From Nitratiruptor sp. YY08-10 (lineage in GTDB: Bacteria; Campylobacterota; Campylobacteria; Campylobacterales; Nitratiruptoraceae): 64,000 bases of DNA. Shown one piece after another: positions 46,725 through 48,610 of this stretch (position 1 is its first letter; every line of letters begins with the position of its first letter). The stretch is from positions 930,001-994,000 of the forward strand of contig NZ_AP023057.1 in assembly GCF_016629565.1 (NCBI RefSeq). The letters are read 5' to 3'. A program made the position numbers and the translations under genes. The notes beneath the pieces are model-generated. The model did not search any database. It was not told where the DNA came from and worked only from the letters and a program-made list of their open reading frames with translations.

Positions 46725-47783
46725 TCACTCCTTTTCTAACTCGTCCATAATACTTGCGGCTTTGTAAAGTTTATCTTCATCAAAATGGGTATAGATTCTT
46801 GATGTATCCAAACTGGCATGGCCCAATGTCTCTTGTACCAAAACCAAATCTTTACTCTTATTGTACAATAGTGTAGCAAAAGTATGCCTGAGCATGTGCG
46901 CACCGTTTTTCTCTTTGCGTATACCGCAGCTTAAAAGGATCTTTTCAACCATTCTACTGACATAAGCTTGGGTGAGAGGAGCGCCTTTTTTATTGCAAAA
47001 GAGGAGCCCTTTTTCACAGTTTCTTTTTTCAAGCCACTCTTCGAGATCCTTTTGAATTTTCTGCGCTTTTATCATGACAACTCTTGATTTATTCCCTTTG
47101 CCAATAATTTTTAGTAGATAAACATCATGTTGTAAAATCACATTTTTTATAGGAAGATGAATGGCTTCTGAGACACGGATACCAGTATAAAGAATCATTT
47201 TAATGATCGCTCTGTTTCTTGCAGCTACATCAGGTCGAAAGGGATAAGTGTCGATAGCATGCAAAAACTTTACTATCTCATCTTCACTTAAAAAAACAGG
47301 AAGTTTTTGACCCGCTTTTCCTCTCAGACCGCCCCAGTTTTTGAGTTCAATTTCATACAGATGTTTGTCTTCATTGTTTTTATTAATGTAACCGAAAAAA
47401 TTGATCATTGCAATACGATAGTTTTTTTTGGTTGCATCACTGAGACCTGCAGTAGAAGAGGCCAGAAAATCGACTATCATCTCTTCATCTATCTCTTTCA
47501 TAGATGCGAGTCCCAAAGTATGTAGATGTTTGTACAGTTTTTCTAAAGGTTTGTAGTATGTATTGACACCAATAAGACCTATGTTTCTTGCTTCTTTTAC
47601 TAACTCTCCAAGTTTTTCAATAGAATTTGTTCCTGTGGTCAGTGAATGGATGATATTGGCAAGTTTTTGTTGATCCTTGACTTGTCGATTGGATAGTGTT
47701 GTGAGTTTGAAACGGATATAGCGTTCTATCCAAAAACGAAGAGAATTTTCAAAATTGTCTTTAAAATCAAGTGGATATTTCAT
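46725..47783 (-). CDS. xerH: tyrosine recombinase XerH
   Basis: A 352-residue tyrosine recombinase of the single-Xer type used by Campylobacterota to resolve chromosome dimers at dif. The catalytic set is complete: R203 (YTGIRVSEAIHL), K229 or K232 (GKGNKSR), H296 and R299 (HMLRHTFA), H322 (LGHASLDTS) and the nucleophile Y331 (RIYTH). The N-terminal SAM-like DNA-binding domain (about 10-150) is longer than in XerC/D, as usual for XerH. A candidate dif site lies 35 bases upstream. The stop overlaps the chorismate mutase start. Confidence 0.92.
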   Translation of the reverse strand: MKYPLDFKDNFENSLRFWIERYIRFKLTTLSNRQVKDQQKLANIIHSLTTGTNSIEKLGELVKEARNIGLIGVNTYYKPLEKLYKHLHTLGLASMKEIDEEMIVDFLASSTAGLSDATKKNYRIAMINFFGYINKNNEDKHLYEIELKNWGGLRGKAGQKLPVFLSEDEIVKFLHAIDTYPFRPDVAARNRAIIKMILYTGIRVSEAIHLPIKNVILQHDVYLLKIIGKGNKSRVVMIKAQKIQKDLEEWLEKRNCEKGLLFCNKKGAPLTQAYVSRMVEKILLSCGIRKEKNGAHMLRHTFATLLYNKSKDLVLVQETLGHASLDTSRIYTHFDEDKLYKAASIMDELEKE

Positions 47784-47806: not shown

Positions 47807-47823
47807 AATACTAATTTAGTATT
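47807..47823. promoter_or_regulatory. 17-bp palindrome next to the candidate dif site
   Basis: AATACTAA (47807-47814) and TTAGTATT (47816-47823) are exact inverted repeats around one T. It lies 24-40 bases upstream of xerH and overlaps the left arm of the candidate dif site, so it may be an operator or part of the recombinase-binding region. Confidence 0.4.
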
Positions 47824-47845
47824 GAAAACTATAATTTTCAAACTT
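47818..47845. other. candidate difH recombination site
   Basis: Left arm AGTATTGAAAA (47818-47828), centre CTATAA (47829-47834), right arm TTTTCAAACTT (47835-47845). The right arm reversed reads AAGTTTGAAAA, matching the left arm in 8 of 11 positions, with a perfect inner TTGAAAA/TTTTCAA. Two 11-bp inverted arms around a 6-bp centre is the architecture of dif, and in this phylum dif lies close to xerH. The match is structural; it was not compared with a database. Confidence 0.6.
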
Positions 47846-47887
47846 TTATTTTTGTTTTGTGCGATACTATTCTATCAAATTTCTCAG

Positions 47888-47967
47888 TGAACATATGTTA
47901 ATATATATATGAACATCTGTTAATCATCATATTAACAGTTGTTCATTTTGTTATGAACAACTGTTAA
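47888..47967. promoter_or_regulatory. array of four operator-like motifs upstream of tetR
   Basis: Four 14-bp near-palindromes start at 47888, 47910, 47932 and 47954, exactly 22 bp apart: TGAACATATGTTAA, TGAACATCTGTTAA, TTAACAGTTGTTCA (inverted copy) and TGAACAACTGTTAA. The half-sites are TGAACA and TTAACA. The last one ends 19 bases before the tetR start. This is most simply a cooperative operator for the adjacent TetR-type repressor. The 22-bp step is about two helical turns, so all sites face one side of the DNA. Confidence 0.7.
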
Positions 47968-47986
47968 CTAACCTTTCGGAGAGCCT

Positions 47987-48610
47987 ATGAATACGCAATC
48001 TTTGGAAATTAAAGAAAAAAACACCAAGCAAAAAATATTAGATGCAGCACTTGATCTAATAGCAGAACATGGTTATTCAAAAGCTTCTGTTCGTATGATT
48101 GCAAAAGCGGTCGGAATTCGAGAAAGTGCGATTTACAACCACTTTTCGAACAAAAATGAGATCTTTTCAGCCATTGTAAAACAATTGTTCACTACTCCTT
48201 TTGATGATTTTTTTGAAAAAAAGCCTCCAAGTGAATATGCTAAAAAAGGAAAAAAATATCTTTTGGAGTATGTATCGACAGTCAAACTGATCAGTTTCGA
48301 TCAAAAACATGAAAAGTTGTTTCGAATTATTTTACAAGAGTTAATGAAAAGTAGCGAAATACGTAAAGGATTCATTGAACACTTTTTTAAAGAGAATATC
48401 AAGAATCTCTCAAGCGCTTTTTTTATTATGATGCAAGAAGGTCTTATACGATCAAACGATCCCATTGTAACTGCTCAAGAGTTTTTCGCTCCACTGTTTT
48501 ACTATAGGCTGCAAATCACCCTCTTTCGCTTGGAAAATATGCCGACGAATGCTTTGTCATCCATCTTTGAAAAACATGTCGATTTTTTTTGGGAAAGTAT
48601 TATGTTGTAG
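47987..48610 (+). CDS. TetR/AcrR family transcriptional regulator
   Basis: A 207-residue repressor with a TetR N-terminal helix-turn-helix (about residues 15-60): KILDAALDLIAEHGYSKASV, then IAKAVGIRESAIYNHFSNKNEIF. The C-terminal ligand-binding half (about 65-205) is helical and not assignable to a ligand. CGGAGAG precedes the ATG. The four-site array just upstream suggests autoregulation. No efflux or metabolic gene follows in the same direction; the RND pump gene lies far away at 3-6 kb. It converges on hypA with 7 bases between stops. Confidence 0.88.
   Translation: MNTQSLEIKEKNTKQKILDAALDLIAEHGYSKASVRMIAKAVGIRESAIYNHFSNKNEIFSAIVKQLFTTPFDDFFEKKPPSEYAKKGKKYLLEYVSTVKLISFDQKHEKLFRIILQELMKSSEIRKGFIEHFFKENIKNLSSAFFIMMQEGLIRSNDPIVTAQEFFAPLFYYRLQITLFRLENMPTNALSSIFEKHVDFFWESIML

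Follow-up and report, generated by a model that had tools for sequence, protein, structure and literature searches.

An element immediately upstream of xerH in Nitratiruptor sp. YY08-10 is very probably the chromosomal difH site, and plasmids of this strain and its relatives carry difH-like sequences

In Helicobacter pylori, recombination at the chromosomal site difH requires XerH, FtsK and intact arms of the site (PMC3325230), and the structure of the XerH-difH tetramer has been solved (PMC5241119). A similar layout, likewise with a single recombinase and an adjacent site, is known from the XerS/difSL system of streptococci and lactococci, although XerS has no phylogenetic alliance with XerH (PMC2731167). 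Classical dif sites share with the element described here a length of 28 bp, the 11-6-11 layout and, roughly, a location in the terminus region, but they have other arm sequences and are served by two recombinases, XerC and XerD, which are absent from YY08-10. The closest described case comes from the same genus: in Nitratiruptor sp. SB155-2, difH was reported at position 1,001,399 (Carnoy and Roten 2009, PMC2731167), and we located it at 1001388-1001411 of that genome (1,877,931 bp).

Nitratiruptor sp. YY08-10 possesses a chromosome of 1,792,750 bp and a plasmid of 27,067 bp (PMC9723563). The window analysed here, 64,000 nucleotides in length, comprises bases 930001-994000 of the chromosome, and features are given in window positions unless stated otherwise. 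Between the start of xerH (47783) and the start of a TetR-type gene (47987) lies the intergenic 28-bp element AGTATTGAAAA CTATAA TTTTCAAACTT (47818..47845, plus strand; 977.8 kb on the chromosome). It consists of a predicted left XerH-binding arm, AGTATTGAAAA (47818..47828, plus strand), a central hexamer, CTATAA, in which strand exchange would be expected (47829..47834, plus strand), and a predicted right XerH-binding arm, TTTTCAAACTT (47835..47845, plus strand), which equals published difH right arms. Only 5 of the 28 bases are G or C. The first-pass annotation had described two inverted 11-bp arms around a 6-bp centre with a perfect inner TTGAAAA/TTTTCAA; this is what the DNA displays, the inner seven positions being exact inverses of each other, though over the full 11-bp arms 8 of 11 pairs match. 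It had also set the site 35 bases before xerH, and while the upstream placement is right, the gap between the edge of the site and the start codon (47783, minus strand) counts 34 bases. On the other side of the site, overlapping inverted repeats built of GTTAAC- and TGTTCAT-like units occupy 47884-47971, just 5' of the TetR-type gene (47987-48610), and are probably operators of that regulator gene.

The alignment with published difH sites that had been proposed as a check shows the window to match the SB155-2 site letter for letter over TTAGTATTGAAAACTATAATTTTCAAACTTTTATTTTTGTT. The two Nitratiruptor sites have the same core, centre and right flank and both adjoin xerH (PMC2731167; Debowski et al. 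2012, PMC3325230). They diverge in the outer left flank, and SB155-2 difH is published as lying 52 bp from its recombinase gene, as against the 34 bp counted in YY08-10. The H. pylori site is likewise similar, with arms TGAAAA/TTTTCAA around a 6-bp centre, yet the left arm AGTATTGAAAA has as its counterpart in the crystal structure AGTTATGAAAA, the centre CTATAA corresponds to CTGCAC, and in H. pylori 26695 difH lies ~2 kb from xerH rather than beside it. Against the published difH consensus from 24 species, the element matches at 34 of 35 positions, the runner-up on the chromosome reaches 26 of 35, and the best matches in five order-2 Markov genomes reach 24-25 of 35. A model of the difH arms scores the element at 29.7; the next chromosomal place, within a gene, attains 18.9, and nothing on the chromosome besides difH exceeds 20. 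The 61-bp stretch that contains the site occurs once in the genome. A second perfect TTGAAAA-N6-TTTTCAA at chromosome position 915,396 was dismissed because it lies inside a gene.

The neighbouring gene, xerH (46725..47783, minus strand), encodes a tyrosine recombinase of the single-recombinase type. The protein of 352 aa is close to the 353-363 aa expected of the family and is a full-length homologue of H. pylori XerH (PMC3325230; structures PMC5241119, PDB 5jjv and 5jk0), which it matches in phmmer over residues 1-348 (5jjv, E=1.8e-101). The catalytic residues R203, K229, H296, R299, H322 and Y331 show no variation among 13 aligned XerH proteins, and in the crystallised H. pylori protein Y331 and K229 have Y344 and K239 as their aligned counterparts. 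A search of the genome with XerH at 1e-5 returned no protein besides itself. Four proteins in the genome, XerH included, contain the PF00589 domain; of the three besides XerH, two look like integrases belonging to other elements, and the last, at 282.7 kb, sits at the published position of the NrS-2 prophage. The XerC and XerD equivalog profiles scored far below their cut-offs, and the XerS family profile gave 98.8 bits against a cut-off of 267. As judged by the XerH search and the PF00589 proteins, no second Xer-type recombinase accompanies XerH in the genome. Nor do the arms, TTGAAAA/TTTTCAA, contain an XerD-type arm near TTATGTTAA, so that with XerC and XerD lacking the element is not a site of the classical dif type. 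FtsK, of 700 aa, is encoded in the genome.

Because the element is letter-identical to the published Nitratiruptor difH, present in a single copy, intergenic, located beside the only xerH and without a better match elsewhere, we are nearly certain that it is the chromosomal difH, the dimer-resolution site served by XerH, at which binding and recombination are predicted. The earlier proposal of a dif site is thereby upheld, and neither the type of site nor its sequence is new, the same sequence having been published for the genus in 2009. On the basis of homology to the H. pylori system, two XerH monomers would bind the 11-bp arms of each copy of difH, and the two difH sites of a chromosome dimer would synapse as a tetramer. 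Y331 of XerH would then cleave at the edges of CTATAA and strands would be exchanged, with FtsK at the septum activating the reaction so that the dimer would yield two monomers before division. It is from this homology that we infer binding, cleavage, strand exchange and FtsK dependence at the YY08-10 site.

The association of difH with XerH extends well beyond the genus. In an order-wide survey of 60 genomes, in which a difH match was defined as three mismatches or fewer, XerH was present in 23, difH in 22 and both in 21 (Fisher p 6.6e-13, a value that overstates independence because the genomes are related); one genome (G012) with a difH match of three mismatches but no XerH was taken as a chance hit. 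Of 80 named xerH loci in the genome collection, 73 had at least 400 bp of upstream sequence, and among these 59 had a difH (cut-off 20/24) within 400 bp upstream, which bears out the statement of the first-pass annotation that difH sites of Campylobacterota lie close to xerH. The two adjoin each other in all four Nitratiruptor genomes surveyed, and named Hydrogenimonas and Sulfurospirillum records likewise contain a chromosomal difH linked to xerH. For the 62 difH sites found at named xerH loci, the median position is about 60 bp upstream of the gene, the centre is CTATAA in 49, and the orientation relative to xerH is one way in 48 and the other way in 14.

Such short and conserved spacing agrees with a dual role, in which difH is a recombination site and bound XerH also represses its own gene. 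The linkage could, however, persist merely because the xerH/difH pair moves as a module, and on the sequences at hand we consider that XerH may act in this second way but probably does not. Much less probable is that the palindrome serves mainly as an operator or leader element of xerH, for instance in autorepression by XerH, with a recombination role that is absent or secondary. Its position 34 bp before the xerH start and close upstream in most relatives would suit an operator, since it is plausible that XerH sitting on the site covers the promoter; yet the sequence is kept at places far from xerH, at 59 kb in C. concisus, 68 kb in C. curvus, 36 kb in C. fetus and 2 kb in H. pylori (PMC2731167), its orientation to the gene is variable, and in H. 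pylori difH recombines in dependence on XerH and FtsK (PMC3325230). We therefore regard a mainly regulatory element as very improbable and retain the reading of the element as difH.

Several further features were seen at difH loci of other genomes. In several Arcobacter-, Poseidonibacter- and Sulfurospirillum-type loci (L229, L231, L234, L235, L243, L260-L262 and others), both arms have changed to TTGGAAA/TTTCCAA with the dyad kept, a joint change that suggests co-evolution with XerH. In G057:C1 (967683 and 977341; L124, L104) and G043:C2 (81127 and 89186; L125, L105), the main difH is accompanied at a distance of 8-10 kb by an incomplete second copy in direct orientation, which may represent the distal end of an element that entered difH by way of XerH. 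Two other Nitratiruptor genomes have additional, apparently intergenic difH-like sites with another centre on their chromosomes (G018:C1:1359234, L137; G051:C1:1333541, L138), and a transposase-like gene lies near L137. Inverted pairs of difH-like sequences 0.4-0.6 kb apart (G045, G059) were set aside as a repeat within neighbouring DNA that, by eye, appears to code for glycosyltransferases, and not as recombination sites.

The first-pass annotation had further held that the site marks the replication terminus, where GC skew should switch. The cumulative skew of the YY08-10 chromosome has its minimum at 2,696 and its maximum at 1,047,834, with a plateau at about 940-1,080 kb; difH lies inside this plateau, 70 kb from the raw maximum. 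Since the 1,012-1,048 kb block, with 26 genes, is 96% plus-strand, the raw maximum is shifted away from difH by this distance. When four-fold degenerate sites were used and the contribution of the coding strand was separated from that of the replication strand, the switch fell at 1,007 kb (bootstrap 978-1,032 kb), which leaves difH ~29 kb away, at the edge of the range; the T/A version of the same model placed it at 1,025 kb. Polar octamers gave a pooled switch point of 977, 1,028 or 1,048 kb depending on the selection threshold, and they were dropped as candidates for FtsK-guiding (KOPS) sequences since this point was unstable across thresholds. Offsets of this size from the skew extremum have precedents, SB155-2 difH lying 73.8 kb from its raw maximum (PMC2731167) as compared with 70.0 kb here, and published sites showing as much as 90 kb, with 89.9 kb in H. 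pylori (PMC2731167). Thus, difH lies roughly in the terminus zone without marking the exact skew switch.

The raw skew maximum might be read as a sign that dimers are in truth resolved at another place, such as a classical XerCD dif near 1,048 kb. We find this scarcely credible, as no equivalent of XerC or XerD was found in the genome, no other chromosomal place scores near difH, and the gene block just described shifts the raw maximum. Finally, the idea of a chance palindrome in AT-rich DNA has virtually no probability left: the bare architecture, with 7 exactly paired inner positions on either side of a 6-bp spacer, is indeed common, with 259 places on the 1.79-Mb chromosome, and the palindrome by itself is therefore not significant, but it is the sequence that decides, with a difH match far exceeding the rest of the genome and random genomes, and conservation across genera already refutes a chance origin.

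With the chromosomal element thus read as difH, we turn to plasmids. All four distinct Nitratiruptor plasmids carry one intergenic difH-like site each, with a centre unlike the chromosomal CTATAA. The YY08-10 plasmid site reads TTTATTGAAAA TCCCAC TTTTCAATACC (G000:C2:24430-24457); the others have the centres TTTTGC in the plasmid of G018 (G018:C2:24268-24295), GCAAGA in that of YY09-18 (G036:C2:14302-14329) and CTATGA, one base off CTATAA, in that of YY08-13 (L163:13870-13897). In the arm model these sites score 15.8-21.8, with simulated p of 0.016 to 0.066 on the model alone. The plasmids of G018, YY09-18 and YY08-13 contain exactly one perfect TTGAAAA-N6-TTTTCAA apiece, and since only five besides difH occur on four Nitratiruptor chromosomes (~7.3 Mb), finding one on each plasmid greatly exceeds what would be expected.

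When 72,556 plasmids were searched by blastn with difH, 26 records came up, including seven from Campylobacter and one from Nitratiruptor, and each of these eight that figured among the matches listed had no annotated gene beneath the match. On further plasmids, chosen by Rep or ParA and not by difH, high-scoring, isolated intergenic sites were likewise found, namely on C. jejuni pFORC46.2 (23.6), C. coli pCC42yr (23.6), Hydrogenimonas pISO32_2 (25.4) and Sulfurospirillum pSDCE1 and pSDIE1 (22.5); difH-like intergenic sites on plasmids of these four taxa were noted at L186:11699-11726, L196:16233-16260, L197:735-762, L199:4892-4919 and L200:9164-9191. Among these, the site of C. jejuni pCJ_BCH-11531, TAGTTTGAAAA GTAGAA TTTTCAAACTA, has 11-bp arms that are exact inverses of each other. 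Plasmid p16187MP2 of Campylobacter sp. RM16187 carries two similar difH-like sites 5.3 kb apart (L185:14672-14699 and L185:20004-20031), each adjoining a similar gene set of toxin-antitoxin type, an arrangement that resembles the pdif modules of Acinetobacter plasmids. No site above chance was present on small plasmids of H. pylori, H. cinaedi, H. cetorum, C. volucris and C. jejuni, or on the C. fetus plasmids CFV76223 and 00A031; the pattern is thus not universal. We found no report of plasmid difH sites in the literature searched, which consisted largely of open-access papers.

The plasmid sites would be to XerH what cer, psi and pdif are to XerCD. Judging from their sequences, we lean towards the view that XerH doubles as a plasmid multimer resolvase and that the differing centres keep plasmids out of the chromosomal difH. 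If true, this would explain how the larger plasmids of Campylobacter, Sulfurospirillum, Hydrogenimonas and Nitratiruptor are kept monomeric in hosts with a single Xer protein, and the plasmids would provide a natural set of central hexamers for testing how XerH separates replicons. It is these sites that form the new lead, the chromosomal site being ordinary. The latter nevertheless establishes where chromosome dimers would be resolved in a deep-sea chemolithoautotroph, and it confirms that vent lineages retain, with nearly the same DNA, the XerH/difH system known mainly from work on gut pathogens.
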